From: Isoetes taiwanensis
Taxonomy: Eukaryota; Streptophyta; Lycopodiopsida; Isoetales; Isoetaceae
Assembly (NCBI GenBank): GCA_021234155.1
Contig: JAJEKV010000071.1
Span: 1,623,138-1,687,137, forward strand
Direction: 5' to 3'
DNA length: 64,000 bases
The notes beneath the pieces are model-generated. The model searched no databases. It worked only from the letters and a program-made list of their open reading frames with translations, and was not told where the DNA came from. Shown one piece after another: positions 4,725 to 56,859 of the stretch (the first letter of the stretch is position 1; every line of letters begins with the position of its first letter). Both the position numbers and the translations under genes were made by a program.

Positions 4725-4974
4725 CGGTCCCCTTCTTGTTACGATAGAGCTTAGTGGGATCTCCTTCTTACTTCTCTTGGGAATAAAACTATGCTCCCCT
4801 TGTCAAATTTTGCCCTGCAAATCAATTACGGCAAAATTCCCTTCACACAAGAAATTGCTCCTTTCTCAATGGTGTCATTCTTTACCGACGAACACCAATA
4901 CCAATGGTAACAACTCCTTTTTCAATGGAAATTCTTGCCGATCAATGGTCTATCGAGCACCGTGGTCGCCAAAT

Positions 4975-5347: not shown

Positions 5348-7272
5348 ATGAGGTTGAGCAATACTTGAATGCACGCTATTTCTCAGCTTCTGAGGCATCA
5401 TGGAGAATCCTCTCATATGAAATACAACAACAGTTTTCTCATGTCATTAGATTGGCTGTGCATCTCCCAATGCAACAAGATGTATACTATCGAGAAGGTA
5501 TGAGCATGGACAGTATAAGAAGCAAGAATAATGGAACAACATTGACAGCATTTTTCGAGATGAATGCATCTGGGGGTAGAGAGGCTAGAGAGGCTACTCA
5601 ATTGCTCTATCATGATTTTCCTAAAAAGTTTACCTACGATCAATCCAGTCGAAAATGGAAGGTCAGAGAGAATACCCAGAAGTTTCCCACTATTGGACGC
5701 ATGCACTTTGTTAATCCTTCAGAAGGAGAGCGATACTATTTACGACTCCTGTTGACCCGCGTGACAGGTGCAATTAGTTTTGAAGATTTACGCTCCTTTG
5801 ACGGGGAGTTGTGTGCAACATATAAAGAAGCTTGCATTCGTAGGTGGGTTGCCGGGGACGACACTGAATGGCTCGAGTCTCTTCAGAAGCAAGCAAGCAT
5901 GGGGCATGCCACCACAATTGCGACATATGTTCGCCATGATACTTTTAAATTGCGAACCATCGAATCCGCTGCAACTGTGGGAATAAGTCAAGCTTTCTAT
6001 GGTCGATGACTTTTTGCATGAGGCACGAAGGGTTGCGGAGGATCAAAGTGTGCAAGTGTGTGATCGGTTATTTGATATGGCACTTCTAGACATTGAAGAT
6101 GAATTCTGGCGGACGATCTTTGAGAGAGTTTGAATTCATTCTTCCCAAGCGTGCAATAGATCCATACATGATATTTCGGGATGAGGTGTTTCAAGAAGAC
6201 ATGGCAGAGGTGCAAGAAGCTGTGGACCGCCTATATCACGACCAACGCATTATCTTTGACCGTGTGATCCATGAGCACGTGATGTTGGAAAAAGGACGGG
6301 TGTTCTTTGTTCATGGTGCAGGTGGATCGGGAAAGAGTTTTCTTTTTAACACCATGTTGTCTTATGTTCGTGCCAGAGGTTTCATTGCACTTGCAGTTGC
6401 TTCCTCTGGAATTGCATCCACTTTATTGAAGGGAAGGGCGCCTTTGCACATTCAAGGTTCAAGATACCGATAAATATAGATGAGACATCAACATGCAATA
6501 TTCCAAAGCAGTCCGAGCTGGCAAAATTGATAAGAGCGACACGTATGATTATATGGGATGAGGCCCCAATGATGCATAAACATGTTTATGAAGCACTGGA
6601 TAGAACGCTCCGTGATGTGATGTCAAGGGCAATCCTTACGCCACTAAATGACGATGTAGATGAAGTAAACAAGAGGATGACAGGGTGGTTGCACGCTTTA
6701 CGCTGTTGATTATTACAAAGGCCGATCGATGATTTGTGGATGAGAATGATGCAGGGGTCTATCCTGTTGAATTTTTGAATGCGCAAACTCCGAGTGGGAT
6801 GCCTCCACATCAATTGACATTGAAGGTTGGCATGATTGTCATGTTGTTGAGGTCAGTTTCTACCCGGAAAGGACTCTACAATGGAACTCGCCTCATCATA
6901 CGTTCATTGGGAAGACGTGCTATAGATGCCGAGATTGTCACTGGAAAAAATATTGGGAGCAGAGTGTTCATATTTCGAATTCCTTTGGTGCCAAATAATG
7001 CAGAACTTCCATTTCAATTTGAACGCATGCAATTTCCGCTACGTCCAGCTTTTGGCATGACAATCAACAAGTCCCAGGGCCAAACGATGAAAATGGTTGG
7101 TTTGTATTTGCCAAACCCAGTATTTAGTCATGGACAACTCTATGTGGCACTCTCGAGAGCTCAAGGAATCCAAGGCATAAAGGTACTCATTCTATCGAAG
7201 GATGGAGAGGCAAGCGCAGACGTCGACCGATCAAGATATACAACAAATATTGTATACAAAGAACTCCTCTAA
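5348..7272 (+). pseudogene. Helitron RepHel helicase, decayed C-terminal (PIF1-like) part
   Basis: Remains of the helicase half of a Helitron RepHel protein, the rolling-circle transposase. 5348-6009 holds the linker typical of plant Helitrons (YLNARYFSASEASWRI, RLAVHLPMQQDVYY). 6093-6473 holds Walker A GAGGSGKSF (about 6315). 6527-6709 holds Walker B IIWDEAPM (about 6548) followed directly by ILTPLNDDVDEVN, so the sequence normally between these motifs has been deleted. 6736-7272 holds the PIF1 C-terminus (GMTINKSQGQTM, YVALSRAQG) with a natural stop. The frame changes near 6005, 6470 and 6705. The Rep nuclease domain is absent, and the left edge is cut by the LTR fossil. Confidence 0.85.
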
Positions 7273-7698: not shown

Positions 7699-7924
7699 GA
7701 GAGGTAGGTGGAGGATAAAGTGCATGTATCTATCTTTTTGGGTAATGTAGTGCTTTGACTAAACGTGCAATTATTTGTCTTCTTTTCAGATGAGAAATGA
7801 TACCGCAGTACCTTTGCTTAATTGGTGTCTTAGTAGCAAAGGAACTCACATGTGTTGGAATATGTAATGGAACCCGTTTTAGGGTCTACAAATCATTCCT
7901 TCCCGAAGCGATATCGATTCCATC

Positions 7925-8516
7925 ATACGAGTCTACCTTGAGGGATGAGTTGTCTCACGTGCTTGATAGTCGGTGAGGCGTGGGCGGGCAATTCGAATCA
8001 ATGACTTCGCCCGTGCATTTCACTTTTACCCCAGCTAAGATGTTATCCGGTCGGAGAAGTGAAGATATCGGGAGTATCCAACAAAGTACAATATTAGGCC
8101 CTTGGTGATGTGCGCCATGTGGAGATGTATATTTAGAGTTCCATCATGAACTAAAATACGTCAATGAGCTAGGACAAAATTTTGTGTTTTGTATTTTTGT
8201 ACCTATTTTTTGTTCGTGTACTTAACTACTTCTAAGGGTGACATTTTGAGCATAAGTTCTGGATCCAGCTTTCCAAAATTTTGTTTTTAGAGGTAGATTT
8301 AACACATTTGTTACAAAGCATTCTTTTCTCTGTTGAAATTGATAAACGCAAAGTTAATAGATTGATGACACTGTCATTAGACAAATTTCAATAACAAAAA
8401 AATTACAAAAGCAAATATTGTCTGATCTTGCCTATATCAACGTGTGTATGGACGTTAAAGGCCGAGTAAAAACACATGCTAAGACATTAGCGCAAGAACG
8501 CCGCACACGTTACTAG
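7925..8516 (+). mobile_element. Helitron 3' terminal region, first copy
   Basis: Noncoding 3' end of the helicase-bearing Helitron. It matches 11908-12503 along most of its length (shared phrases TTTCACTTTTACCCC, ATGTTATC, CCCTTGGTGATGTGC, CATGAACTAAAATACGTCAA). It ends with a degenerate hairpin (GCGCAAGAACGCCGC) and CACGTTACTAG at 8516, followed by T, as expected for a CTRR-3' Helitron end at an A/T target. Confidence 0.8.
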
Positions 8517-14052: not shown

Positions 14053-14348
14053 GTCCTATGTTCACAATTACTCGATAGTAAAAAAAAATGCAGTTGAAAT
14101 AAGGTATTCTAAATTTTAATCTCTGTGATGTTTTGAACCTAACCCCTAAAATTGGCATTTCAGGTGGTTGATATGTTGATCCAGTGTTACATTTTTTTTA
14201 GAGGGGCTAAAATGGCACATTTCAAATTATAATCACCATGAATTTTTGGAGTTAACCCCTAAAAGAGCCATCTCAAATAGTTAATATGTTTTTTAGAAGG
14301 AAATCTTCAAATGAGAGTGCTGCAACACTCCCCTTTAATATGCAACCT

Positions 14349-14893
14349 TGTTATGGCAGGAAGGAGAAACTTTGGAGCAAACTCGGAATTGGTTCTACAT
14401 TCCGAATAAACGAGGTTGGCAGAACTCCATTCAGGCTGTCTGGGGCCTTACACAATTCTTAGAGCGTGTTGCTACGTCTCCTGATCCGTCCGTTCATTGT
14501 CAAGCAGAATTCTATATGTTCCTGAAATGCCTTCTTCAATGTTTCATTGCTCAAAAGCGCCCTATCTATTATTGTAACCCAAATGCCATTGCTGGTGCTT
14601 TTGGCCTTCAGACTTGCCTACTTATTGAATGCCAGTTCGTCCCCGTGGAAGCCCACCATGCCCTGAAAGACATGGCGCAATCACGATTTCTGATTGACGC
14701 GTCGTCATCTATTGAGGTACACATTTCAGATGCGCTGAAAGATAGGCAAGATCTTATCCAGAAATATCACACTGAGGCACGTCCCTACAGCAGACATGAT
14801 GATTTTGTAAAGGTTCCTGGTTTTCCTCCTTCAGAGTTTGTTCCTGCTTTTCTCTCCTTCAAGTGTTCTTTGGTTGGAGGGGAGGGGAGTTAG
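14349..14893 (+). CDS. Conserved terminal-exon-like frame of repeat X, function unknown
   Basis: Open frame of about 175-180 codons, best read as a last exon after the acceptor TATGGCAG at about 14360 (first residues EGETLEQTRNWF); there is no good ATG. Visible segments are GWQNSIQAVWGLTQFLE, KCLLQCFIAQKRPIYYC, AFGLQTCLLIECQFVPVE and ISDALKDRQDLIQKYHTEA. It stops at a purine-rich tract. The inverted copy at 56860-57360 keeps the same protein with changes. I recognise no family. It could be cargo of an LTR element, since it precedes a polypurine-like tract, or a host exon. Confidence 0.45.
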
Positions 14894-15460
14894 TCTGTGC
14901 AGCCAGGCACAGGACTATTCCTCAATTCCACGCAGGCAAGGGACCAGGTCAAGCGTCAGGGTGCAGACCCACGCCCCCTCCGAGGACCACGCAGAAATCC
15001 ATGCCCCGTCAAAGAAGAGAGCCAAGCAAGACAAATGATGGCCTCCGGGGAGTGCGGCCCTAACTTAACGAGATTCCAGACACTAATGAAGACACTGCCA
15101 GAATTCCTTGAAATCATGCATGCGATCCAGGAGTTGGTGACTGAGATCTGCCATCTATCTATTCTGGGCCCAAGGCCATTGTACTATATATATATCAGTA
15201 GAGATAGATCTTTGGTTTTTAGATGAGATTTTAGAGTTGTCTCATTTCATTCCTCTCGCTTGAGGAGAGTTCATGTACACTTATTGATATTCAAAGGACC
15301 TTATCTTGGCATATTGTCTTTGAATTTCTATTTGTTTCTTTCTTCCTTTTCTGATCTCTTTGCAAAATCCCGCGTGACCCTCAGCCAGGATTTCCCTGCT
15401 TGATCCAAGGGTCCTCATAGAGGGCTGTCTTGCAGGGATCCCAAACCCAGGCCCTAAACA
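14888..15460 (+). repeat. LTR-like block of repeat X, copy 1
   Basis: 573-bp block. It follows a purine tract (GGAGGGGAGGGGAG). The partner copy starts TGTTAGTC, and both end CCTAAACA. Inside are a TATA-like ACTATATATATATC (about 15183) and CT-rich downstream sequence, as in plant LTRs. Homology to copy 2 continues past its right end, so it was already fixed in X before X was duplicated. It is an old fossil of uncertain (possibly Copia) affiliation. Confidence 0.5.
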
Positions 15461-15597
15461 CCTAATCAAAAATGAAGATTTTAAGTTGCACAAGGTAGTT
15501 TTTTAGAAGTTTCAAAGCCAATGTTTGTAAAAGGTGGTCTTAAGAAGGGGCAATAAGTCAAATTTCAATTTGGACCTTGGAAGATAGTTCGTGTACT

Positions 15598-15628
15598 AAC
15601 CATCATTCAATTAAATTGGGTTTATGTC
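15598..15628 (+). repeat. Left terminal inverted repeat of the 12.3-kb element
   Basis: Begins AACCATCATTCAATTAAATT. It pairs with the reverse complement of 27891-27921 with two mismatches. It is preceded by the TACT target copy at 15594-15597. Confidence 0.85.
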
Positions 15629-15797
15629 TTAATTTTGGGACAAATTTCATATTGCATGTTTTTAGTAGCATATTCAAATTCACACATTTCACCTCAAAAT
15701 TATGAAAACGTAATATCATGTTATTTACAAAATAGTCAATATTTCACAATATAGCACCATATCATAAAAACGTGATAACAAAAATTTACATAGTTAT

Positions 15798-18080
15798 TCA
15801 ACTTTCTTCAAGCACCCCCAATGATATCATAGCCTTCTTCCTGACATCCTGAGGTATTGTAATTCTCGCATTTCTAGCTGGAATAGTGTTTGGAGTCCAT
15901 GAGTACAAAACACTATCATAGTCTAGCCAAAGATCAGGATCACTCGGATTTCTCCTCCATCTCTTTGTCCAACAATCTGAGTACCTTTCTTTATCCGATA
16001 CGTTGGTCAACTGATGCACCTTTGGACACCACCATTCCACCCGCACATGGTTGAAGTTAATATTACCTTCTTCTTTGCAAATATCGAGATAGTGAACCCC
16101 AACCACACTGGATATGTATCTAAATCTGATGGCTTTACTACCACAAATTGGTGGCATTCCAAGTCAGTGGAAGGTTCATAAGCATCCATGCCTAGAAACT
16201 TTGGCCTATTGTTCTTAGGACCAACATAGTGTTTGTCAGAAGGAGGAGGAGCATATTGCTTGCGAATGCTACTTACAGTGTCATCAAAATCCTCAGCACC
16301 TGCTAAGGTCTTCCACCTAGTCTTAGGCAACCACCCTTCTTTCAATTCATCTGAGGATGTGTCTATCTCCCCCAACAGGTTAATCACCTTCTTCCAGTAA
16401 GCCACCAAGGCACGGTTGGTGTCATCTGGATTGGTTTGCCAATGCTTTATATAGTCTTGGATTCCTTCCTTAGTCAATCCCAATTGCTTCACTTCTTCAG
16501 TAGGTTTTAAAGCTTTTGGTTGACCTAGAGGTATCATAGGCTTGCCATTCTCATCTCTACGCCATATTTCCTCCCTCCTCTCCACTCATCCTCACGAAGG
16601 TCTCATCTTCCATTGGAAGATTGGAATCCCATCTCTCACCCAAAAGTGAACTGCAGAGGCTGGAATGACCTTCAAGATCCAATGTATAACCATCCACAAA
16701 GCTCTTCCAATCGGGCACTTCTTCTATGAGAGAAGCTATAGGGTTTGGAGTAGTGCATTCATGCAAGATTTCCATTAGCCTAGGAAAGTTGGTCACTATT
16801 TGCTGCTTCAGTATACAACTATATTTGCCAAATAATGCATCCACATCCTCATGGGTATGCCGGGCATAAGAAACCCTAAATTAACTCTTTCAAATATCCC
16901 CACAATTTGTTAAGTAGGATAGGAAAGAAAACATCCATTGTTCTTATTTTGGCAACACAATTATCAAGTTGCAAGAGAAACCTTTTGGGTAGATCTTGAG
17001 GTTTAGCACGTGAAGTTGAAGCTCCAACATGTTCATTAGACCCATGCTTCCTAAACCTTGCCTTGCTGAAGTTTTCAATATTGTTAGGGTTTCCATCTAA
17101 CAATGCTCTATGTAGTGCTGGCTAGTGTAAGGTCCCGGAGGTGACCATTGTATCCATTTTCATAGTTTCTCAAACACCTCATGATACTCCCAATATGAAA
17201 ATCTGGACCATCACTCCACAACTCCAAACTAAAATGGCCATAGTAGGTTTGATTACGCCCATGCAAGATTGCCCTATCATTGAGATCAGTAAAGGGTATG
17301 ATCTTCCACATGACTTTGGTATGTACTTGAATTGTGGAAGACAAGTCTTTTGCTGGTCCATCTTGTCATGTATAATACATAAATAGTTATTGGGTTCCAA
17401 TGCAGATAGATAAAGTCCTCCACATCCAATAACATGATCTACATGATAGTTGGTCAGTCATATGGTCCTTCATATGCTCCCTTATCCTAGCCCTTTGACT
17501 AGGTTGCACAGTCTTATCAAGAGTCTCCTTCAACTTAGCACATAAATTGCACTTTGCAAAGTTGTTTGAAGTTGCTATGGTGACATGATTGAAATGCTTC
17601 TTCCATAACCTACTAAAGCTAGGTTGGGATATTGGAAGAATTCCCAATTCTCGAAGTAGGGAATTCACTTCTTCCAAAATACTCTTTTGAATACAATGTG
17701 ATGGCAACCTTTTTCTCAACAACTGCTCTTCCCTTTTCATCCCTCTCGCTTTTGTGTGGCATAGACTGCATTGAAATCAATATATTTTTCAAATATCTCC
17801 CTGGTAGCCACGGTCCTAGCTGTTGGTCTCAACAAACCATTATTTCCATGTAAAGCAATCCTGTTCCCCTCTGCCTTTTTTTTTTGCCAATTATGCCATG
17901 AAGAAGTTGGAATTGCATGGATACTCCGCCATGCTTTTGCACATATCCATTTGCCTAGCAAAGGGTATCTTTTCTGTTTGGGTTTCTTTCATCTTGAAGT
18001 GCATGCTCAAGATTGTGTACATGTAGGTCCTCCTCTCATCAACGATTGTACTCTTGAAAAGTGGCTCTTGCTTCCACCAA
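15798..18080 (-). pseudogene. DDE-type transposase-like gene (DUF7869-like), decayed
   Basis: Read from high to low coordinates, fragments in changing frames give an orderly protein: GKWICAKAWRSIHAIP and SSWHNWQ (about 17950), a basic stretch and a Cys pair, CNLCAKL (about 17530), then IIHDKMDQQKT (about 17370), FSLELWSDGPDFHIGSIMR (about 17200), FLLQLDNCVAKIRTMDVFF (about 16950) and PHEDVDALFGKYS (about 16840). A C-terminal part of about 250 residues lies at 15798-16585. The order D-x-MD, Q-x-DN, and (H)HEDxDxxF is what I recall of the uncharacterised DUF7869 family and reads like a DDE/RNase H-fold nuclease. Frame breaks (for example near 17390, 17105, 16870 and 16560) make it a relic. It transcribes toward the left terminal repeat and is the likely source of mobility. 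Confidence 0.6.
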
Positions 18081-18207
18081 TTGTTCTATTGTGAAGAATT
18101 GCATACAATCACCCAACAACAATCTGAGCCCCTAACCTTCACCATTGTCTCACGTTTGGTGTCACTAATCAACTTGGCTCTTTTGCTAGGATAATGTCGG
18201 CAACCGA

Positions 18208-18690
18208 TACTTCTCCCTTTTACCTAGGTTTAGAGTTCCAACCGCCAATGGATCAATATCAAGACAATCATTGTCCCCAACAACCTCGAGCTCGGAAAAA
18301 TATAATCCTCCACAAATTGAACACTACTTATAGGCCATGCCATGATGCAAGGAACCTCCAATTGCTTGACACAACCAAAACATTCCTTGTCACCCAAACC
18401 TTTACCTTTCAGGTTGTCTTCCAACATCGAAATTGCAATACCAATATTGTCTTCCCCTAGCCTTTCATCATTAATGACTTGACCGGGATCTGCTAGCACA
18501 ATGACTCCTTGGCCTACTATTTCCTTGTTGCACTTGTGCATGATTCTCACCTTCTTGTTCCTCCATTGCACCCTACTATAGAGGACTAATTGTTTTTCTT
18601 CAACATTCTTGCTAGGAGTTGGTTTTTCATTGATATTGCTCTTTTCACCATCTTGAGTTGGAGGGGCACCATTGACCTAGGCAAATTGCA
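18208..18690 (-). CDS. Conserved plant transposon-associated module upstream of the transposase
   Basis: Minus-strand frame of about 150 codons: a polar leader (EKSNINEKPTPSKNVEEKQ), then LVLYSRVQWRNKKVRIMHK, CNKEIVGQGVIVLADPGQV, DERLGEDNIGIAISM and VPCIMAWPISSVQFV. The pattern V-A/G-x-G-x(4)-DP ... LG ... AWP-x3-V resembles the module seen in proteins linked with plant CACTA/Ptta-type elements. It could be the N-terminal exon of the transposase gene just downstream or a separate accessory protein. The frame is lost near 18210. Confidence 0.4.
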
Positions 18691-19016
18691 CCTTTTTTAG
18701 TCAATGAGTAAGAAAAATTATTACACCATAAGATAAAAAGTATTACATTTATGGAATATGTAGAGGTAAATCAAATTTTTTAAAAGCAAGAAATTCCTTG
18801 GAAATAGGTTTAATATAATAATAACAATGGGCGAAATCGAAATCATTTAAAACAAGAATTTTCATGGCAACAACAAAGGAAATGACATTTATATAAATAT
18901 ATCCAAATTTTAATTATCGAAAATTTGGATATATGATTCTTAAAAAGACATATAACTAATAGACGTGAGAATTTATTATCCATAATAATATACCCTAGAT
19001 AATATAGTCATGGAAT
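18691..19016. other. AT-rich intergenic spacer between divergent genes of the element
   Basis: AT-rich sequence with no open frame of note. It separates the minus-strand transposase unit from the plus-strand cargo and may hold the minus-strand promoter. No clear box is visible. Confidence 0.5.
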
Positions 19017-19115
19017 TTAAGACGCTGGCGTGTTATTTGAGGCAATAAATTATTCACGCTAATTTCTAATTAACCCTATATAAATCCGGTTCACGCCTCA
19101 AGACCATTCTCCCCA
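19017..19115 (+). promoter_or_regulatory. Cargo promoter P1 with TATA box
   Basis: Contains GACGCTGGCGTGTTATTTGA, then TTATTCACGCTAATTTCTAA and the TATA box CCTATATAAATCC (about 19075). A close copy lies at 20188-20285. The downstream leader is pyrimidine-rich and ends at GCCGCCATG (ATG about 19136), a good plant start context. Confidence 0.6.
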
Positions 19116-19135
19116 ATTTTTTTTTTTTCGCCGCC

Positions 19136-19769
19136 ATGAAGCGTTGCCCTCGGTAACTCGAACTTCATGAAGAACCCGAGGTCTCGTCAAAGAGGCGTCG
19201 GGTTGAAGAACCCTTCCCCCTCATAGATTTTCTTGCCCAATTCTCCTCGATTCGATTAGGAGGATGATGCTGATTTTGACATGGAAGAGGAGGAGTTGAG
19301 CTCCTCTGATTCCTCTGATTCTGAAGAGGAGGAAGAGGAGGAAGAGGAGGAAGAGGAGGAGATGTCCTCCCAAGAGCATGAAACCGCCTCCCGCTTGGGG
19401 TTGGCTTGACCTCGAAACGAGAATGAAATCTCTCAAGAGGAGGAGGAGGAAGAGGAGGAGGAGGGGGAGGAAGAGGATGAGGAGGAAGGTCGAGAAACAC
19501 CGGTTTTTAGAATGGCCGAGAGATGAGCCGGGTTTGCATATTTTGATTTTATTTTTTTTCACCTTTCTTTCTTTTCTAACACCTTTCTTCCTTCTTTGTT
19601 GCAGGCGTGGAAGATCAATGATCTGCATCCCGGGGCGGCCTTTTTTTTTGGTTGCTTACAGAAGCTTTGGACACGCCTCCGGGCATTTTTTTCCTGTAAT
19701 TTTGTGAAAAGCCTTCGGGCATCTGTACATTCTCCTCTTATGAATGAAATCAAACAGTTTTCGTCATAA
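19136..19769 (+). pseudogene. Acidic low-complexity protein gene, decayed
   Basis: Behind promoter P1. From the ATG at 19136 the frame is soon broken. A later frame encodes DDADFDMEEEELSSSDSSDS followed by a run of about 13 glutamates and a second E-rich block. After an acceptor at about 19604 comes AWKINDLHPGAAFFFGCLQK. The GAGGAG microsatellite (about 19285-19490) explains the long Pro/Leu-rich minus-strand frames here, which are not real. Acidic tails of this kind occur in histone chaperones and many nuclear proteins, so no function is assigned. Confidence 0.35.
19285..19490 (+). repeat. GAGGAG-rich microsatellite
   Basis: Two blocks of (GAGGAA/GAGGAG)n, at about 19287-19365 and 19435-19490, encoding poly-glutamate in one plus-strand frame. 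Confidence 0.85.
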
Positions 19770-20187
19770 AATTTTCTTCAAACAGTGTTCTTCGAACAGT
19801 TTTTCTGTACATAAAATTATTTGAATTAAATCCAACTGTTTTCTCCAATTATTTTGTCTCCAAGCTGTTATCTCTAAAATTTTGTATCTGCAAATTTTGT
19901 CTCAACAAAGTCTCGGGAACACTATAAATCAACCACATGAGAAATCTCTGATTCATCACAGTAACCATAGGAAATTTTCCTATACGACCTAAAACAATTC
20001 CCCAACCTTACAAGTCATTTTTTAGCCTTCATAATTTTGCCTTTAAAATCATTTTTAATTTAGCCTATATAAAATTTCTAAATTCTATTTTTTCGAATGT
20101 AATAAATGGAATAAAATGCCGTGAGAATTTATTGCATGAAATGCAATATTCTCCATATATACCATATACATGTCATGTCCGGGCGGA

Positions 20188-20285
20188 AGACCGAGACGCC
20201 AGCGTGTTAATTCAAGCAATCAATTATTCACGCTAACTTTTTCTAATTGTGCCTATATAAATCCATTTTACGCTCTCAAAGTTCC
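20188..20285 (+). promoter_or_regulatory. Cargo promoter P2, near-duplicate of P1
   Basis: GACGCCAGCGTGTTAATTCA, TTATTCACGCTAACTTTTTC and TATA box GCCTATATAAATCC (about 20256), in the same order and spacing as P1 about 1.17 kb upstream. It is followed by a leader and a possible exon ending at the donor near 20360 (TTG/GTGAGC) and an acceptor near 20460. Confidence 0.6.
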
Positions 20286-20907
20286 TACATTTTCTTCCTT
20301 CCTTCATACGATTTGCGCAAGGCCTCGCTTTGTGTTTGATCCGCCGTCCCGAAATCTTGGTGAGCAGATTTATATTCATCAATGTTAGATGTTTGCTTTC
20401 GGCAATTCCTAACTTACTAAAAGACTCCGCCTTTTGTTCTGTAGCATCTGTAGCAGAGGAAATCGGAGACTCAGAATTAAAACCAAAAGAAGAGGACTAA
20501 GGTCTGCGAATCGAAAAGCCTCGGAATTAAAACCACAAGCATAGTCCTCCGTTCTTCGAATCCTTCCGACCTCGTAACTCAAGGTTAGTTTTCATTTAGT
20601 TTTAAGTTGCATCTCAATGGCAGGTTTAATCCAAGAAGACAAGCTTTTGCATTTGCTCGAGGCAGAGGAAGCAGATGATGTTTATTTATGAAAACCAGAA
20701 TAGTTTTTTATAAACTTCATCTGCCTCTTTTTGTTTCGAGTAAATTCTTGAGTTTCTCTTCCTGAATTAATCATGCTATTGCATGCAAGTTTCTATTATG
20801 AATAAGTGTAGTAGAAAGCATTATAAAAATCTGAAAGATAATATTTGAAACACGCTAAGCGTGTTTTATGGTAACCTTAGCCTTCAACATGAATACACGC
20901 TCGGCGT

Positions 20908-21052
20908 GCATTCAGCAGGGAGGGAGAAAAAAAAAACTGTACAGATAGATAAGTAAATAGATAAAGGCCAGAAGCGTGTAAATAATTGCCTGGCCTTTAT
21001 CTATTTACTTATCTATCATATGCTTTTTTTTCTCCCTCCCTCGCTGAATGCA
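20908..21052 (+). repeat. Long hairpin (inverted repeat) in the cargo region
   Basis: A 28-bp perfect stem (20944-20971 against 20990-21017; GATAGATAAGTAAATAGATA and on to GGCCAG) with an 18-nt loop. It is extended outward by a second arm, TGCATTCAGC plus GGGAGGGAG plus an A run (20908-20936), against a T run plus CTCCCTCCC plus GCTGAATGCA (21024-21052). It could be a MITE-like insertion or a small-RNA-producing fold. Confidence 0.85.
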
Positions 21053-21219
21053 CCGAAAGCGTATAGTTTTTCCTATATAGCGGGTTTGGCGTGCAAACAA
21101 TTGTATCCCTACTTTCAACTTTTACGCTTAAACACGGGGCGTGTCTCTTAGTTTCTAAGTTTATAAATAAATAAATATAACACGCCAGCGCGGAATACCG
21201 ATACTCCGCTCACTTCCTA

Positions 21220-22000
21220 TTGATAGATGCTGTGTTACAAAGAATCACCCGGTTGGGACGAAGATGGATTGGAATTACATTTGGGCCAAGAATCACACAG
21301 CCCAGCCTCCGGTTTCGGCTCCAATCTCCAATCCGGTTGAACCGCGGCCGAAAGCACCGGCCCGGCTGGAGCACCGGCCTTGCAACCCCCGAGTACTTGG
21401 ATCAAGTAATGATGATGGCGCCAGAGCCAGTGGCAATGATAGATCTGGGCTCTGGGGCCCTTGCAATCGCATACGGAGGCTGGCCCTCTTATCTAATCAC
21501 TTCGAGAATGCAAGACATGCATTGATCGAGAGTGAATCTCGCATCCGCGTTCGAGATTCAAAATGAGGAGTCGTTTTCTTAGTGGTTAGCCTCTATGCCC
21601 GGATGCCCCTAACACGAACCACTACCACAAAGTGATATACGATGCAATGGAGATGGCTCAACCAATGGAACCACTACCGCAGCGCTTATACGATGCATTG
21701 GAGGTTCAACAGAGGAGCGGGCGGAGCAGAGCAGGGGGAGGGAGGTGGAGGTGGGAGCGGGGGGTGGTGGAGCTAGAGCCCCGGTGTTTTTTTTGGGGTT
21801 TTACCGGAAGAATTCACTATGCCCCCGCAATGGAAATGGGGAGATCGATAGCCCAAACTACTCAAGAGGACCGGGCTTGAAACAAGAGATCCGGGATTTT
21901 GTCCGGTTTATCCGGTTTATCCAGATTATATACAATTGTAATCTTTTTCCAATGAATACAACAAATTTTGTCTACTTCTATATTTCTACAATGTAATACA
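21220..22000 (+). CDS. Unassigned coding-like region of the cargo
   Basis: Overlapping frames with GC-rich, proline/arginine-rich content, for example MDWNYIWAKNHTAQPPVSAP from 21264 and MEPLPQRLYDALEVQQRSG from about 21660, followed by a Gly/Trp/Arg-rich stretch. No family is recognised and no single frame runs through, so this is probably a decayed exon or exons. It lies between promoter P2 and the exon at 22702. Confidence 0.25.
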
Positions 22001-22701
22001 TGTTACATACCTTTTTAAGCGGTTTCTTGGCCATGCAACAAATGTTCCAACACTTTCTCCAACCGTATCCCCACGGGGGGTGTCTGCGAGGTAAAGCTTC
22101 ATCCATAGCGCAGTGATTAATCAACAGAACTCGGACATACTTATCCCGGCGAATTCCGCAGCGGTTCACGATCGGATCGATGGAGTCGATCTTGCATAAT
22201 CCTACTTTCCTTTTTCGATTTGTAGTTAACATGAAACATTCATCTTCGATTAATTGCCGTAAAAATTGCTATTGGACACCTACTATTGGAAATTAATGTT
22301 CAAGCTATTGGAATGAGATGAGTACCGTAATTCTCAGAGCCATTCTTGAGAAGCTGATTTGAGTCTCGAAAGTTGATTTGAGAAGTCAAGGCGCTATGGA
22401 AACTCTGGCGGTCGGGAAAATTGAATTAGAAGAAAGATTAGGTTAACTACGTTTAGGCGGGATAAATTTGGCAGGGATACTTTTTGGGTAGATTGGTTTT
22501 TAAAAACTTAATGAAAGAAGTACGGACGGGTCTTCATCATTATTATTTGTATGTGTCAAGAATATTTCAAACCGTGCATTTTGTGTTTTCTTGAAATTCA
22601 AATTTCTCTATCTCATGTGTAGAAAAAGCTATTTCTTCGAAAGCAGCTCGAAGGCCAGATCCGAAAGCGACCTTCCGACTCGTTACTAGGCGACTCAGGA
22701 G

Positions 22702-25700
22702 ATGTCTTCTAAAGCGAATCGAGGTCGAGGCGGCGGGCAGGAAGCGGTGGAAGAGGAATCTCTAAACCCGGCTCTTCTCAAGTTTCAGAGGACGTTGATC
22801 AGAATACCACAAGAATACAATGTAACCCTATTCAAGGTATTTAATTTGCCACGAGAAACAATCGGGTGTGGAGAGTATTATGCTTGCATGAATTTGAGAT
22901 ATTTCCTTTCACTTAATATGCTTTGCATGAGTTTGAGTTATTATGCTTTGCATGAATTTTAAGTATTAACATCGGTTAATGCTCGATTGTCCGCTTCGTA
23001 GAACACAATTTTGCTCGTTTTTTATATATAGAATATAGCGGTGTTAGATGGTTGGAGATAGCAATGTTCAATGAGGTTAAATAGTGTGAAATATGGATTC
23101 ATGAAGGGTATGTAGCTTAAAATGTGGATGCAAAATAAATTAGTTTCAAATTCAATGATAGCATGGTCAATAATAGGAGCTACCAAACGCCAAGCGTGAT
23201 TTGTACTAATTTAGGTTTAAACAACGCCAAAGCGTGATCTCTTGTTCGAAAAGTACTCTAAAAAGTGCTCATCTTCATTTGCAGTGCTCAAGAGGAAGAA
23301 AACCCCTAATAAGTCGGGTTCTAATCCACGCCAAGAAAGCAAGGGCGCGGGCGACCCGGATGCAAAGCACCATATGATCTCACCTTAGATGATGAAGGGC
23401 CGATTCTTATAGCAACTAATGACGACCCATACGAAGAGGAAATGGACGAGGGTGTTTAAGTGGTACGTTGACCTTGCCAAGACAAATGGCAAGCTCGACT
23501 TAACTCTCTTCTCGAGGAAAAGGAAGGGCACAAGATGGCCAAACAAGGGATCCTAATCTCTTGTGAGGAAGAGGATGACACTAGCGCAAATTGCTCTTGG
23601 AGATTACGAGCGGAAGAAAGATCCGCTCGGACTTACTCACCGTAGAGCTACTGCGATACAAGGATACGCTCATGAAGACAGATGTGAGCGGTGAGACATG
23701 TTTTAAGTATGGTTGGCCAACCAATGTAGCAATTCGCCAATATCTATTTGCCAAGGGGGTTCTGGTGTGCGTAGAGGCATGTTCACTAAACCGACACCAA
23801 GTCACTATTTGCAGCAAGCTAGGGAATTAGCCGACTTGAAAGCTTCTAAAAGGGTCCTAGATCTAGGGAAGGATGTTCAACCTGCAGTTTGTCGAAGGCA
23901 TGGAGGCTTCGTTTTTGAGAATGAACAGACAGAGTGGCGCAGCCTAGAGGCCATGAACAAGTCAATAAATACTCGACCATTATCCATCGGGTCTTAAGGA
24001 AACTTTTGCGATCCATGTGAAGTCCTCATCCGTTCACCAAGCTCCATTTATGTTAGCAGAAGATATGATCCAAAGACATGCCATGGAGATTGTTTGAGCA
24101 TGATTAGTAATCCGGTCAAATGCCTATGCCAGCCGGATGTGCTACCTTGGGATATGATCTCGAACAAGCTCTTTGTGTGGACTAACGTCCGTGAGCTATT
24201 ATCAAGTGATGATATTAAATATGTCATCATCGACGGGCAAAGATTCGTTGAGGCACAAAAGGCCATCATCGCAAAAGCAGAACAAACAGGCCAAAAAGTG
24301 TTCTACAATCACTATGCGCGATAGGAGGTGTCGATCTTGGATGCCAATACTTCACCCGCAGATTTGGCTGAGATTATTGCAACTTTGAATGAAATGGGGA
24401 AGACATTTCTATACAAAAGGTAATCAACCCGGTTTCATAAATTGTATTCACGCCAGCGTGCTTTCAAATCAAACCAATTCACGCCAGCGTGTTTTGAAAT
24501 CAATCAATTCACGCCCAGCGTGTTTTTCAAGTCAACCAATTGATTTGAAAACACGCCGGGCGTGGAATTCGCTTGATTTGAAAACACGCTGGCGTGAATT
24601 GGTTTGATTTGAAAGCGCCGGGCGCGGAATTGCATTAGTAACTTTATTCATTTCACGCCAGCGTGATTTTCTCTTCATCAATTCTATTCAAATCGCCCCG
24701 GCGTGTTTCTATTCTATGATACCGATTCAATGTCCGTACTATTGCAGTCCATACGTTGAACAACCGCGCCACGCCGGGCCAACATTGGGTGGAATATGGC
24801 TGCCCATTGCCCACCGTGATGCGGGTCAAAGTCCGAGGCATTCAAAAGGCTGGAGCGGACTCATCGCAGCACAATTATACTGAGAGAAGAAGAATACTGC
24901 AAGAAAATCAAAGAAAAAAGGTGGTGATGACATTGCAGATCCTTCCGAAAGCTCATCCAAAGAAGTCGGGACCAAATGACCTTCGTATAAGATTGTGTTT
25001 TGTAAGGAGGCAAGATGGCTCAAGTGGAATGAATTACGGGACGCTTTTATGCACAAGGGAAGCCTGCCAGATACTATGGGTAGGGTGCCTCCTGTTGATG
25101 TAAGCATCTTTGACTTGAATGTGACAGAGATGAGAAAGACTCAGGGGCTAGACGACGCTGAGACCATTTGGGTTTTAGACCAGTGCTTAAAGAAGGAAGT
25201 CTTATACAAGAAGAGTGCTTTCACCAAGGATAGGATGTCCTTCGTTGAGGCCGCGACCATGTAAAGGATGTACGTACAATGAAGTCACCAGAGGGAGCCG
25301 AGTTACAAAGGCTATCGGGGATGTGGCATTATCCGAAATTGGATTGTCGGACAAATACAAGGTCAAGAATGATGACATCAAGAAGTTTGTATTCTGGTCA
25401 AAGGACTTCCTAAAGAATTGGAAGGCTAAAAATACAAAACATAAGGAGACTCTACCCCTAAGGTTACTGGCTGAGTTGAGAAGAAAAGTGGCCCTTGTGA
25501 AGAAGATTACTGGAGAAGACGACACCGCCCAAAGATTCTCCATTGGGTACAAAGGTCTCTTGCCGATTCAACCGGCCTAAAAAAATATATCACTCTTTTG
25601 TGTTGGACAGCCAGGGGTGGGAGAGGAGATATGGGCATGAACCGAAGGACTACAAAGAGCTTCTTTACCAGCTGTATAGGATTGACAACTGAGAGGTCCT

Positions 25701-26760
25701 TCACTATTGTCATCGTTTGTCCTTCAGGTGAGTCACATCTGCATGCACTATCCGCTGCTCATGATCTGGAGTGCCTCAAAGTTATTAGGGAGGGATGCCT
25801 AATATATGATGTTAAGGATAATGAGCTGCGAACAGAGCGGAAGATGGCACATGTGATCTTTATTATGATATCCATGTCGCCGACGAGGAATATGATATTG
25901 CTAAGGCCAAGGGTGACAATAGCAAAGTGCATGGGAATGTTTTCTTCTAGATGATCCGGACTTAAGAACTATATTCTTTCATACGGATCGAGGATCGTAA
26001 TCGATGAGTCGGAAGAGGATGAGGATGGGACCCCCTCCTAAGTGGGGAAATCAAGCACGAGCTACAAACTAAGGAGAAGGACCCTTAAATAAAATGGATT
26101 TCCCGTCTATGGCTGCTTACCTGCCGAGGCATTTGCTCCAATTGATACAACCGCTTGGAGCTTCATGTTGAGGTTATATTGCCAGAGAGGCTCTTATGGG
26201 TGCAAGAAGATGTCACCGCTTTGTGAGTGATGAGCAGGCCAAAGACTTTCTTGAACCATTCCTCATGCATGTGCTTGCCAAGTCTCCTAAAGGCCCTTAT
26301 GGCAACCTGAAATCATCAGCAATCAAAAGTCTCAGAGACTTGTCCAATTCGAAAGTGGACGTTGCTCCGGAGAGGGAACTAGTAATCTGGTACCGATAAG
26401 GAAAGCAAATAATGAACAAATAGTGCTAAACTGGTTGCTCAAAAATCGTGGATGGCGGCGAACTTAGGGAATATCCTTGCCCACATTGCGGGTGATGCAA
26501 GCAACAATAGAGTAGATTCACAGGTTAACAATGAAATAATTGGTGGAAACCGAAAATGAAGGCAACGGCGGCTCTAGTGATTCTGAGTTTGCCAAATCAA
26601 TAGTAAAATAATGTCAGTTGTGAAGGACGCAGCGGAACTAATAGAAAATAACAATTCTAACAGTCAGAAGAAGACGAAGATTAAGGGTGGCGAAGGGGAG
26701 AATGACGCCGATGACGGCAGCGAAACTGAAGATGATAGGTATGGCCTTGCCCACGAAATA
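22702..26760 (+). pseudogene. Multi-exon cargo gene, decayed, function unknown
   Basis: The first exon, 22702-22836, starts MSSKANRGRGGGQEA and ends at a good donor (TTCAAG/GTATTT). Coding-like sequence with frame changes continues at 23285-24420 (RELADLKASKRVLDLGKDV, which recalls methyltransferase motif I only loosely; NKLFVWTNVRELLSSDDIKY; KAEQTGQKVFYNHYAR), 25080-25580 (VSIFDLNVTEMRKTQGLDD, FWSKDFLKNWKAK), about 25600-25730 (GWERRYGHEPKDYKELLYQL) and 26450-26760 (NLGNILAHIAGDASNNRVD, then an acidic linker). Introns hold CACGCCAGCGTG-type palindromes. It may be one gene with the HAD-like exon at 26948. Multiple stops make it a relic. No family is assigned. Confidence 0.4.
24448..24720 (+). 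repeat. Cluster of CACGCCAGCGTG-type palindromes in both orientations
   Basis: At least eight units in about 270 bp, each with CACGCC(A/G)GCGTG or a variant beside TTTGAAATCAA/TTGATTTGAAA and CCAATT. Neighbouring units are inverted, so the stretch can fold into nested hairpins. Related single motifs occur at about 19022, 20193, 20850, 20887, 23190, 23225, 26760, 26810, 26845, 26880 and 27874. Confidence 0.8.
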
Positions 26761-26947
26761 GCGCCACGCGTGATTTAATTTGTATTACCTTTGAATTAAA
26801 ATCGCCAAGCGTGCTTTGATTATTTTTCGTTGTCAAACTAAATCACGCCGGCCGATTTGGTTATGACTATTTCAAATCACGCTTGGCACGTTTGTATTGT
26901 TTGTGTTATCGTATCTTCTTGACCCGGATACATGTTTGATGTTTCAG

Positions 26948-27584
26948 CTTCCATTGCGTTTCTAAGAAGGTTGTGGTGTTCGACCTAAACGGAGTCCTTT
27001 GCAAGACTTTTCCGAAAAATAAAGTGGCTAGAGAACAGTTTCATCAGACACCAGTAGAATCAAACACCAAGTGGATCTATCCGCGGCCGCACTTGAAGGA
27101 GATGCTAGACGAGGCATTCAGGTTATTTCGAGTTGGTATTTGGTCATCCATGGAACTAAGGAACATCAAGGATACTTTGGAGGCACTGGGGGAAATGCGT
27201 AGACATTGGTTGACCCTTTGGGATCAGAACAAATGTGTGAAGTTCACTAATCCCAAGGATCCAACAGGCAAGCCTATCTTCATCAAACACTTGAGTAACA
27301 TGATGGACGAACTTGGTATCGAGAATAAGGATGATATAATCATAGTGGATGATGATGCTCTCAAATGCTTCTACAATCAAACACAGGCCCTGAATCCACC
27401 ATCTTACGATCCAAAAAACTTTGCGACAGATGATTTTCTGGTGAAGTTTGTGTCTATTATGCATAATTTGGCTATGGGGATGACGGTGGGTGAAGTGTTA
27501 GATTCGTACCCAGAACTGGATAGAACGGCTGACATGGAACCACACCTTGTTAAACACGTGGAAAAACATGGATTGATCCCTTAA
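26948..27584 (+). CDS. FCP1-like HAD-superfamily domain, DLNG variant
   Basis: Open exon after the acceptor at 26947 (FHCVSKKVVVFDLNGVLCKT), running about 211 codons to TAA. HAD motif I is VFDLNGVL: the nucleophile Asp is present, and the +2 position is Asn where DxD phosphatases have Asp. I recall DLNG in a plant FCP1-like subgroup. Motif II is FRVGIWSS, a lysine lies in IFIKHLSNM, and motif IV is IIIVDDDALKCFYN, close to the family pattern DDSxxKCxxNP. The C-terminal helices resemble plant FCP1-like proteins. Activity as a protein phosphatase is uncertain because of the Asn. It ends 337 bp before the right terminal repeat and is the best-preserved cargo of the element. It may be the last exon of the gene starting at 22702. 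Confidence 0.75.
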
Positions 27585-27890
27585 TGTTTTATTGGAATAT
27601 ATGATATTTTTGTATGATATTTGTGCCATGTATCGATAATTTCGAGTCTGGAATTGCCTCGCAAATAATGCAATCTGTTATTATCAATCCCAATATTATC
27701 ATCTATCGAGCAAGCAATTTTGGTCTCATCTATGTTAGCAACTTGCTCTTCATTTCTGCATATTTCAATTCGCATATGAAAAGTCACACGTGAATCGCAA
27801 CCTTATGTTATTTTTGAAGTCCAAAAAAAAAGATTAAAAAAAACAAAAACCCCCTAGAAGACAATAGCAGGTTGGCGTGATTTTGGAGTT

Positions 27891-27921
27891 GACATAATCC
27901 CAATTTAATTGGATGATGGTT
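27891..27921 (-). repeat. Right terminal inverted repeat of the 12.3-kb element
   Basis: The reverse complement starts AACCATCATCCAATTAAATT, matching the left end with two mismatches in 31 bp. It is followed by the TACT target copy (27922-27925). Confidence 0.85.
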
Positions 27922-28990
27922 TACTCAGATCTGCCAAAAAACAGTCAAGAACACTTACATTCAGAATCTTGAAATTTATAACATGAGCTTGCAATCAGGG
28001 TAGCCCTTAAGGACGAAAGTTCGCCAAAAGGCTATTTTTTAAGATAGATAGATAGTTTTAATGTCATGCCACTAGGCAGCATCCAACTGGATATGCGACC
28101 ACACACCACATTATATTGCTTGGTTGGGCCCTGCCCCCAACCTTATATTGCGTCTGTTGGGATTTGACCCCCAACAGTACCAAGTGTGATTCTGGGTGGT
28201 CTCGAACTCGAGACCACATTGCTAAGGAACTAGTTTTAAGGAAGTCGAGAAATTTTGACGCTATGATTTAGTAGGCCTATTATAGATGAAACAAATAAAA
28301 TTAGCCAACTTTTCTACAAACAAATCTCACTCCACTTGAAAATTCGCCACATCCACTAAGCGTCGTAACTATGGATTCGCCTTATCCTCTACCCTCCTTC
28401 TTGAAGATTTCTTAAGGAATCGTCTAATCGTCTAGGCTTTCTTCATAACCTAATCTATTCTCCAGATCCATCGAGGTACATATTATAATTTTAAGAGTTA
28501 TCTTTGTAGCTATTGTGTTTCAAATACTTCTAAGGATGCACTGGAGAGCATTTTTTTACAGACCTCTCATTTATAGTTTTATCTACAAGGATAGGCCACG
28601 TTCTCATTTGCAAAGGTTAAGTTGTGGTATTGCATCATGCAACTATAGTTATAATGTGTTTATGTCCTTGATTAAATATGGATGTCGGTGAATAAAATTT
28701 CACCACAGAAATTGCACTTGGAGAATAAAGACACTTAAATCTTGGCAAAATAACATTTGCCATGATTCGCCCAGATTTCTATAAAAAACATTCATGTCTA
28801 GAAAACATTCGCCAGTATAACTAATCTTGCAACTCTATTATTCGCCCGACCTTCTAAATTATGCTTAGACAAATTTGGCCTTAAGGGCAACCCTGCTTGC
28901 AATGGAACTTTTGAGAGTTTTCAAAGCATACAGGTGCTAAAAGTTGCCAAGTAATGGCAACTTGTCCAAAATGGATTTAAAATAAGTGGG
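27922..28990 (+). repeat. Repeat X, copy 1, right part (split by a hAT element)
   Basis: 27922-27995 and 28896 to about 28990 together continue repeat X exactly where it stopped at 15597, when compared with the inverted copy 56030-56166 (shared CAGTCAAGAACACTTACAT, CTTGAAATTT, TTTGAGAGTT, CAAAATGGATTTAA). Confidence 0.85.
27996..28895. mobile_element. Non-autonomous hAT element, 900 bp
   Basis: Ends are CAGGGTAGCCCTTAAGG (left) and the inverse of CAGGGTTGCCCTTAAGG (right), flanked by an 8-bp target duplication CTTGCAAT at 27988-27995 and 28896-28903. The X copy on the minus strand at 56093-56100 has the same CTTGCAAT once, which gives the empty site. No transposase is encoded. ATTCGCC-like motifs recur near both ends (for example about 28020, 28340, 28375, 28765, 28810 and 28840), as subterminal repeats of hAT elements often do. 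Confidence 0.9.
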
Positions 28991-33647: not shown

Positions 33648-36310
33648 ATGGCTTCCAGCAAATCAGTTCAGACCTCTATGGCTAATGAGCAGATCAGTTC
33701 TGCTATGGCTAATGAGCAAATCAGTTCTGCTATGGCTAATCAGCAAAACAGTTCTGCTATCGCTAACGAGCAAACATATAAGCAAATCTTCAAGAAGCTG
33801 GGCAAGGTATGTTACCAGATGGATCCCTGTCACTTTTTATTCTCAACACTTTTTATTCACTTGAATTGCTAAAACCGTTTTATGCAGAATGGAATCCAAA
33901 AGCTGAATAACAATGTCCCACTGCTGAGGGACGTGACAAAAAGTATTTGTGCTGTTGCTGGCCAGGCACCCTTGGTCGGTATTTGCTTTCAAGCTCTTGC
34001 CTTGATCATTCAAACTGCAGCAGATTATACTGAAAATAAAGACAAGGCAAGTGAAGTAATAAAGTATGCCCAATTCTTAGAAGAACGCATGGCAACTATA
34101 GCAGATGCAGGCGGCGATGACGAGTACTTGAAAGAAAATTGCCTGGCATTGCTCTGCGCAGAGGCCTCTGAATTTGAGAAATCCAGGTACTTGCTACATA
34201 CTTACTTAAAGTTAGATATGTATTTCCCTTTGTGTGCTTAAGCATTCGATGTTGTATTGTAATTTGCAACAAAGCAGCAGAGCCTGCAACAAAATTATAA
34301 AACCCATGTCTTTTGTTCAGAGTTGCTTAACCTATGTCTTTTGTAGAGTAGGGAGTTTAAGTTAGTAGATCTGCCATTCTTCGAACAATAAAATAAGAAC
34401 GGAATGTTTGTGGTTCAGGTCCAGGAAACAGGGTTGGGCAAAGTGCTTGTGTGGTTTCCATGGTTTGATCTGTGCCCAGTGTGAGGCAAAGGCCCTTGAG
34501 GACCTTGCTAACCGATTGAGTAAAATGAATGACAAACTTACCTTGCACTGTAATACAGTAATTTTGAATGCTACCCCTAAGCTGAGCAATGCCCCACTTG
34601 GGGATCCTTCTATCAAGCTTAACACAAAAGAGGAATTGCTGGCATTCATAAGGAAGTCGGGAATTCGAGTCCTTGCTGTGTGTGGAATGGGGGGCATTGG
34701 AAAGACTACTTTGCTGACCAAGTTATATGATGATGAATTTCCAAAGGGAGACAAGCAAGTTAAGAAAGCTTTTGTAGATCTCCCTACCAAAACAACGGAA
34801 GTTCTAAGTAAGATAATAACAGACGTTCAAAGTAAGATCATACTTGGATTGGAAAACAAAAATGAGATATTCACAAGCACTCAGCAGGGTCAAAATGCAT
34901 TGCGCAATTGCTTGCAACGTTTAAAGGAAGGGGGCTTTTCCTTGTGCCTATGCATAGATAATGTATGGAAGGTAAATTATCTAAATGCCTTACTGCCGCA
35001 AGATGTATGTGATGTACTTCCAGAGTCAAGCTGCCTGATGCTATCCACACGCTCCCTCCAAGTAGCTAAGGCGTTCGGTCATATTTGTTGTCCACCAAAT
35101 GCAACTGCATACCAACTTTTTCAGCCCAAAAAGCTGGAAATTCAAGAAGCAGAACAATTGTTCATGCAATGCGCAAAGATTCAAAATAAGGATGAGGAGA
35201 AAGGTTTGCTTAAGGCAATAGTTCCCCTATGCGATGGTCTTCCTTTGGCAATTAAAACATACGGCACTTATTTTAGAACGTCGCAAAGGCGGAATGAAAA
35301 CGAGTGGAGGAAAGTCCAACAACGCATCTTAAAAGCTACTAAATCCCCATCAACTGCAGAAGACGACGGCGAAGTTCTCGATTCATTAGAACCTAGCATT
35401 GATGCTCAATCTGACGTTGTGCAAGATGCTTTCATTGATGCCGCTCTTTTTTGGCGTGGTCTGCCACTAGAAATGGCTAGATGTGCTCTATATTCTGGAG
35501 ATGATGATGTTTTAGAAGTCCTTTTAGAGGAGTCCATATTTTACTCATCTTTCGAGCGTGGAAGCTTTGAAAGACATGTTCTACTAGATTGCCACGACCT
35601 CTTTTTTGCCATTGCTGAGAAACGCGCAAAAAACAAAAATTGGGAATATGTGACTACACTAAAGGCAAGTGCTTATCCTCTTATTATTATAAATGTTTTT
35701 ATATTTGTTTCTCTTTTTAATCAACTTTCTAACTTGAACGTAGATGCCACTTTTACAAGAAGAAAGGAAAGTAATTCGTGCAATACATTTTCAACAAACT
35801 TTGGAATTTCAAATATTGCAGAAGAACCTACACATTAAGTACATAATAGGCACCGATATGGATCTTATATATAACATGTGTAACCTCTCAAGCATAGTAT
35901 ACGATCTCAAAGCTTTGAAGCTATATCGTGTCCACCCAAGCCTTCTCCAGGTTCGAATTGATCTCAACTCTATCACAAGAAAATGGTACATGGATAGAAA
36001 ATAAAAATAACTAACTTATCTTCAACATATGGGACAGTGCTTTCCAAACCTACAAGTCCTGTCAGTTGGAGGCCTTGAATATGGAATACAATCAACACAG
36101 GTACATCAACTTCTTTCCTCTTTCTTTGAAACCATTAGCAATTTACGTTTTTTACAAATTGATGGAAAAAACCAGAAGCTACTTATGCTTCCATATTCTT
36201 TTGGCAACTTAGTACATCTACAACAACTTAAACTTGTTCATTTCTCTTGCTTGAAAATGCTTCCTAGTTTTATTAAGCCCTTAAAGGATTTAAAATTCCT
36301 CAACCTCTCC
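33648..36310 (+). CDS. NB-ARC/LRR immune receptor (NLR) with helical N-terminal domain
   Basis: Intracellular NLR-type receptor. A five-exon model stays in frame for 728 codons: 33648-33806, 33888-34186, 34419-35664, 35744-35950 and 36038-36310. Intron 3 has a GC donor (AAG/GCAAGT); the others are GT-AG. I chose the ATG at 33648. The N-terminus has 9-residue repeats (MANEQISSA), then a helical domain (QAPLVGICFQALALIIQTAA, VIKYAQFLEERM) that resembles HeLo/MLKL-type four-helix bundles more than angiosperm TIR or Rx-type domains. NB-ARC motifs: P-loop GMGGIGKTT (about 34684), kinase-2 LCLCIDNVW, RNBS-B-like SCLMLSTRS, GLPLAIKTYG, and CHDLFF in place of MHD. LRRs start in exon 5 (FPNLQVLSVGG, LKDLKFLNLSRC). 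The frame then runs into a decayed LRR array at 36311, so the locus may no longer make a complete receptor. Confidence 0.85.
33660..33780 (+). repeat. 27-bp coding tandem repeat in NLR exon 1
   Basis: Three to four copies of GCTAATGAGCAGATCAGTTC plus TGCTATG, encoding ANEQISSAM-like nonapeptides. The later units have drifted (ANQQNSSAI). Confidence 0.85.
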
Positions 36311-37915
36311 CGGTGCACCCAGCCGTCAGCTCGACACGCCGGCCATTACCGACGCTGCTCGACTTCCGGCAGGCGTTTTACCGCTTCGCCTGACATCGCC
36401 GTACCACGATCGCTTCGATGCGTTCTCGACTTCTCCCGGCATAGCCTACCGGGCCGCTCGAAGACGCTGCTCATTGGTTCACTCGACGGATCTCGACTCA
36501 CTTCGTAGGCTCCAGCCGTCATTTCGCCTGACACGCTTCGGGTTCATTTCCGCCTGGACTGGATCGTTCGCCGGCAAATTTTAACTTCAGCTCATTACTG
36601 GATATCGCCTGTTCGGCTTCGACTTCTCTCCTCTCCGGTACAATTACCAATAGCTCGATACATCGCTACCAATACTACTGACAAGATTCGGTAGCGCTTC
36701 AAATACTACTGCTCGACATCGCTGCTCATTGCTCATTCACGCGAAATTGATTCTCCGGTGGCGTTTACTTCGGGCCACATTACTGGATATCGCTAATTCA
36801 CGCTATTGGCTTCGATTTATTCGATCAGGCGCTTCTAAATACTACCGCTCGACATCGCTGCAATAATACTACTTCGATTTTATTCGACTCTTCAGGCCCA
36901 GCCGCTACCGCTCGACATCGCCAGTTCAATACTCGATTTATTTCGTCTCTTCCTTCAGGTCTGAAATTACCAATACTGATATCGCTGCTCATTACACCAC
37001 TTCGACGTTGCTCGACTTCTCCGGTAAGGCCTAGCTTCGCCTACTGCCTGACATCGCCAATTCATTACTGACGCTGGTTCGACTTCTCCGGTGGCGTTTA
37101 AATACCACCATTACACGCTGCTCGGCCGGCTCATATTGACGCTGAAACTCATCGTAAATACTACCACTGACACGCCGTACCACGCTCACTGACGTGGTTT
37201 CGATTCTCCGGCGTTTTACCACTACCGCTCGACGCTTACAGATCAGCTCTCCGGGCTTCTTATAGAGGAGATAGGATGTAGAGGAGCCCAATATATTATT
37301 TTCAGAGATGCACTGATGATTTGTTTTATGACTTTGATTGATGTGTAAACGCTCTATAGGTATGGCGGGCTTCGGCGACGTAATAATAAATTTCTATTTC
37401 TATTTCATTTTGCGCGCTTCTACCGGCCGTCACTGAAGACGGCCAATTCGGCTGCTCGCTTTGACGCTGCTCTCGCTTCTCCTCGGTAGTTCTACCGCTA
37501 CAATACTGGACACGCTGGCCTGGCCGGGTCATTGATTGCTAAGCTCGGCTTGCTCGACTGGTGCTCCAAATTGGGCCGTCAAGTACGGTCAAGTACTGAC
37601 TGACGCTTGCCATTTAAGTTTGTAATTTCCGGTAAAGTCTTACCACTACCGCTAACACTTCATTGCAGCCTGCGGACGACGCGGCTCGCTTAGGCTCGAG
37701 CACTCCTGGTGCCCATATCCCGCCTCGCTCGACACACTCTCGGCCTTGCCCGACCTCTCTCAGGCGCCCGGCTCGCCCCGGCCGCCATGACTCAGCCTCC
37801 CGACGACGCAGCTCAATCTCTTGGGTGCGCCCTAATTGGACAGGACTGGTTTGACACGCCGCCCGCTGGCTGCCGCGGCCGACTCCGCCTCTCCGGGTGC
37901 ACTCGGCTCGCCTAC
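36311..37915 (+). pseudogene. Decayed GC-rich LRR array of the NLR gene
   Basis: GC-rich sequence that follows the last clean LRR directly. It contains dozens of variants of CTCGAC(A/C)T(C/T)(G/T)C, TTCGACTTCTCCGG and TGACACGCT, the wreckage of a unit encoding LDLSGC-x-L-x-LP-x-TLG. A cleaner version of the unit is visible at 37860-37910 and at 42040-42110. Spacings vary and no frame stays open for more than about 100 codons. AT-containing phrases such as TACTACCGC and ATTACTG recur between the units. This was probably a long array of about 70-bp LRR units that decayed by many small deletions. Confidence 0.6.
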
Positions 37916-50990: not shown

Positions 50991-50999
50991 GAAATAGTG

Positions 51000-54245: not shown

Positions 54246-54248
54246 TGA

Positions 54249-56835: not shown

Positions 56836-56859
56836 CCCCCTCCCAACCAAAGAACACTC

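Follow-up and report, generated by a model that had tools for sequence, protein, structure and literature searches.

Large cargo-bearing DNA elements of plants are often CACTA, MULE or Helitron elements; CACTA/EnSpm and CMC elements are large, with terminal inverted repeats (TIRs) and extra genes, and Helitrons have neither TIRs nor target duplications. The element described here, about 12.3 kb in length (positions 15598–27921), lies in a 64,000-nucleotide stretch of the lycophyte Isoetes taiwanensis (contig JAJEKV010000071.1, positions 1,623,138 to 1,687,137), hereafter the window, and carries a broken gene for a DUF7869 protein that is possibly related to transposases of the Sola superfamily. 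According to the available parts of the published accounts, Sola elements have 4-bp target-site duplications, a DDD transposase, TIRs of variable length (11–1124 bp) and sizes mostly of 2–9 kb, with some >15 kb, and include a moss member (PMC10741241; PMC9033089), Sola1 being reported in the moss Physcomitrium (PMC9033089). The accessible part of a further account describes Sola2-Fanzor families with a near-identical transposase-side region and a differing remainder, and Sola2 families with AT-rich duplications of AWWT type (PMC3627910). In sources likewise available in part, CACTA/CMC elements are given CAC..GTG termini, a 3-bp duplication and, from the second D to the last E, C(2)C and H(3-4)H motifs, Zisupton 8-bp duplications and IS3EU 6-bp duplications with TAYGG ends (PMC12730594), and MULEs duplications of 7–12 bp (PMC10741241). 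The available main text of the I. taiwanensis genome paper (PMC8566536) mentions neither "DNA transposon" nor "TIR", and no Isoetes report of a Sola-type TIR transposon was among the best matches of a literature search.

Borders, copy number and target-site duplications

The two 31-bp TIRs, at 15598–15628 (plus strand) and 27891–27921 (minus strand), were identical at 29 of 31 positions. The termini were AACCATCAT, with AACC as first bases, and TACT was read on both sides of the element (15594–15597 and 27922–27925). Both flanks, fused with one TACT, aligned to window positions 56513–56093 with 93.6% identity over 422 columns, unbroken through the junction, the single TACT of this uninterrupted repeat (56163–56166, minus strand) being the equivalent of an empty site. 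The inverted ends and borders given by an earlier, sequence-only reading of the window were exact to the base. Inside each TIR there is a near-palindrome, CAATTAAATTG, a candidate transposase-binding site. The repeat that hosts the element (14290–15436) recurs in inverted orientation about 41 kb away (56325–57418), the arms being 88% and 96% complementary.

A search of the I. taiwanensis assembly (1,658,258,908 bases in 1,110 contigs) with the 31-bp left end, allowing up to two mismatches, yielded 3,281 matches (1,624 + 1,657), and the reversed control none. As the two ends are distinguished by two bases, both are included in this count, which corresponds to roughly 1,600 elements if the ends are paired. 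The family is therefore high-copy, and not a single insertion. With the left-end query, 38 of the best 40 matches (among 1,201 candidates) were 99–100% identical; the window's own copy was included there, as it was among the best 40 scored of 1,006 candidates for the right-end query.

Both arms were present in most sampled copies. In a first draw, 20 copies were fetched for 10 kb, and 18 followed the window element colinearly as far as position 8.0 kb or beyond, some with indels; copy L015 had a second left arm inside, and in copy L028 colinearity extended into the right arm and ended at a run of N. A second draw comprised 20 places among the first 45 of the exact-end list, with some places on short contigs skipped. 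The transposase arm was found near +1.5 kb in 18 of these, and the other two matched at neither tested place. Right-arm DNA occurred near +7.4 kb in 12 of the 18 left-arm copies (10 colinear, 1 partial, 1 inverted), and the remaining six had other DNA at the cargo place.

Target-site duplications were tabulated for 19 fetched copies (all but L015), with forecast lengths of 10.8–12.9 kb, from 1 kb of sequence fetched where the right end was forecast. Right ends were recovered in 15 copies, and 14 had a duplication of exactly 4 bp (TACA, TACT, CACT, TATT, TGCT, CTCT, ATCT, TAGT, TACC, TATT, TATT, TAAT, TAAT, and TACA). The flanks of the fifteenth, L010, disagreed (CACT vs. TAAG) and showed no duplication, so that no other length was seen, and L009, L018, L021, and L028 had no right end within the 1-kb stretch at the forecast place. 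A target motif TANT, suggested by the paired copies, was gone in 40 unranked left flanks with exact ends, where no position exceeded 0.25 bits inside the duplication and the strongest position was −10 (A or T in 34 of 40). The motif was a sampling artefact, because the paired copies had been ranked by a TACT-containing query.

Compared with the described systems, the element shares 4-bp duplications (14 of 15 recovered pairs and the window copy) with Sola, and its 31-bp TIR and 12.3-kb length are within the described Sola ranges, although the 40 unranked left flanks have hardly any motif and the Sola2 families have AWWT-type duplications. The large size, TIRs and extra gene-like DNA are reminiscent of CACTA/EnSpm, but the termini are not CAC, the duplications are 4 bp instead of 3 bp, and neither the C(2)C nor the H(3-4)H motif was seen. 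An extra gene and a transposase of its own kind are likewise found in the Kyakuja, Dileera and Zisupton (KDZ) group, yet Zisupton duplications are 8 bp. The duplication length also differs from those of MULEs (7–12 bp) and of IS3EU (6 bp), from which the AACC ends further set it apart, and Helitrons differ in that TIRs and duplications are both present here. The earlier exclusion of CACTA, MULE and Helitron on the basis of the ends was thus upheld.

The probable transposase arm and the right arm

The left arm carries a broken DUF7869 transposase gene (15804–18583, minus strand) in several frames, with which three long relatives (P0009, P0010, and P0012) were colinear by tblastn over element positions 207–2986, no intron being needed. 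Open pieces of the window copy and of copies L014, L023, L027, and L012 overlapped over about +0.2 to +3.1 kb, and none of the copies read had an intact transposase frame. Part of DUF7869 (PF25273) was matched at 16557–16880 (minus strand) with 43.9 bits against a cut-off of 26, in agreement with the DUF7869-like relic recognized previously on this arm, and copy L023, with its longer frame, gave 120.3 bits. The matched segment holds the helix HTHEDVDALF, where the third acidic residue is expected.

In Pfam, the function of the domain DUF7869 is given as unknown, and the word DUF7869 was absent from the literature searched. In total, 315 homologues of the protein were found. A structure model built from 113 sequences reached a predicted local distance difference test score (pLDDT) of 82.4, compared with 43.5 for an earlier, poor model from 6 sequences. 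In this predicted fold, the strands follow one another as in an RNase-H-like core, and conserved acidic residues occupy the catalytic positions. There are three such positions, arranged as in RNase H, and the third catalytic residue may be 428 (mostly E), D429 or D431. Transposases or integrases made up 14 of the first 15 matches in a structural search, with middling Z scores. By sequence, the 113-sequence profile had no match in the PDB, and a search of viral contigs with the transposase alignment and with one cargo piece found nothing related. DUF7869 is very likely to be a DDD/E transposase; the family of the protein has a transposase fold by prediction and is not an ordinary host gene family. 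At the C-terminus, the model of relative P0003 has a Tudor/BAH-like fold (residues 658–733), for which the estimated position in the window is about 15950–16180 (minus strand).

The right arm contains degraded coding-like open frames on the plus strand (22690–25954) to which no family was assigned; the plus-strand pieces scanned had no match at the curated cut-offs of Pfam or NCBIfam, except for the last frame. This is a 214-aa open frame (26940–27584, plus strand) with a NIF-type HAD phosphatase domain (PF03031, 56.6 bits, cut-off 21.8). Two homologues, both short and with 52% and 54% identity, came up among 5.8 billion proteins in a word-limited search, and in the PDB the HAD part matched UBLCP1 by sequence at E 0.021. 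NIF-type HAD phosphatases usually have D where the motif FDLNGVL of this frame has N, and phosphatase activity is doubtful because of this replacement. Of the four copies read besides the window, L049 had a broken frame, and in L048, L050, and L051 no part of it stayed open for more than 90 aa. ParB- or methyltransferase-like cargo parts, suspected by eye, matched nothing in Pfam or NCBIfam. The right-arm DNA is common to most sampled copies and is therefore not a private gene capture of the window copy; it could be either a passenger or a partner. The HAD-like domain described previously at the end of this arm was confirmed. No second shared cargo was found, since the six deviating copies matched neither each other nor other fetched loci.

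As both arms lie within one element, equal age should mean equal divergence. Among 19 copies, followed to about 9.5 kb, the difference from the majority base per 500-bp row, transversions included, was 1.7–3.5% in the first 3.5 kb vs. 3.9–11.3% beyond. Across 11 copies of the second draw, mean pairwise identity was 95.9% for the left piece, and the right piece had a median of 89.9% and a mean of 83.1%, which was pulled down because the inverted copy was left in. Arm exchange by recombination or gap repair is the preferred explanation for the two divergence levels; they recall the conserved transposase side of the Sola2-Fanzor families, chimeras that provide a precedent for such exchange, although the domain carried here is of NIF-type HAD and there Fanzor. 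Alternatively, the right arm, which is richer in CpG, may mutate faster.

There was little 3-base periodicity among the 19 copies (top windows z 3.9 and 3.0 near 3.6–3.7 kb, in a proline/serine-rich part, then 2.6 near 7.5 kb), and in both arms the nonsynonymous/synonymous ratios were scattered between about 0.5 and 1.7. Transposase segments leaning synonymous had ratios of 0.54–0.67 (z 2.2–2.3), and the right-arm frame 7728–8045 leaned the same way for singletons (0.50, z 3.2), with 1.03 for shared variants. This substitution pattern is no proof of constraint in either arm and cannot separate a passenger from a partner.

Superfamily placement and alternatives

The element is best explained, with moderate confidence, as a degenerate copy of a high-copy, ∼12.3-kb TIR transposon family of I. 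taiwanensis, mobilized by cut and paste by a DUF7869 DDD/E protein and putatively belonging to the Sola superfamily. The DUF7869 protein, coded on the left arm and predicted to have an RNase-H-like DDD/E core, would bind the 31-bp ends and excise the element, which would then be joined to a 4-bp staggered cut, giving rise to the 4-bp duplication. The copies would have been moved in trans by a few intact sources. Beyond the duplications, TIRs and size, the acidic-triad transposase of Sola may have a counterpart in the conserved acidic residues of this protein, with 428, D429 or D431 as candidates for the third position. None of the traits compared failed, so that the suggestion of a possible relationship to Sola was retained, as a comparison by described traits and not by transposase sequence.

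It is less likely that the same transposon and mechanism belong to a separate superfamily with 4-bp duplications, in which DUF7869 stands apart from Sola1–3. The Pfam filing, the silence of the literature searched and the lack of a PDB sequence match for the 113-sequence profile would all suit such a separation, but none of the Sola traits compared failed, and the moss for which Sola1 is reported in the available part of the source (PMC9033089) also encodes a DUF7869 protein (P0081). A bolder and more tentative proposal is a transposase superfamily, so far unrecognised, that extends from mosses, liverworts and lycophytes to molluscs and has DUF7869 as its catalytic domain; the C-terminal Tudor/BAH-like reader would guide site choice via chromatin, and the mosaic elements would repeatedly exchange their cargo arm by recombination.

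It is improbable that the element is a non-autonomous carrier of a passenger DUF7869 gene, its ends being recognised by a different transposase: the missing intact frame and the mostly near-neutral substitutions in the DUF7869 frames agree with this, but the DUF7869 arm accompanied the exact ends in 18 of 20 copies and is the less diverged of the two arms. A CACTA/CMC, MULE, KDZ, hAT, IS3EU, Ginger or Helitron element, although large plant cargo elements are often of the CACTA, MULE or Helitron kinds, is highly improbable given the AACC ends, the 4-bp duplications, the TIRs, the lack of a C(2)C motif in the roughly 39 residues that separate the second acidic place from the third (in 7 relatives examined) and the absence of an rve domain (Ginger-type, Gypsy-like integrase) from the element proteins scanned with a library that does find rve in the LTR retrotransposon of the window.

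Neighbouring features and implications

The long terminal repeat (LTR) retrotransposon lies at 46339–55966, with direct repeats at 46339–48061 and 54248–55966 (about 7.9 kb apart, pieces 98–100% alike) and an inner frame with rve and Integrase_H2C2 domains. An NB-ARC domain, as in disease-resistance genes, was found at 34369–35835 (plus strand, 72 bits), and a frame at 36011–36505 appears leucine-rich by eye. The end of a Pif1-type helicase at 6733–7269 (plus strand; Pif1_2B_dom, 53.5 bits) is possibly a Helitron remnant, and an 801-aa open frame at 2400–4802 (minus strand) matched Retrotrans_gag (37.7 bits) and Ty3 capsid (33.6 bits). A scan of the window against Rfam gave nothing at gathering cut-offs.

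The family may fill up to 20 Mb, or 1.2% of the I. taiwanensis genome, an upper estimate obtained by multiplication (∼1,600 copies × up to 12.3 kb) and not measured. It is also an example from plants of a transposase arm and a cargo arm with apparently different histories. DUF7869, so far filed without a function, is likely to be a transposase for which ends and duplication are defined, which would allow proteins with this domain to be annotated.
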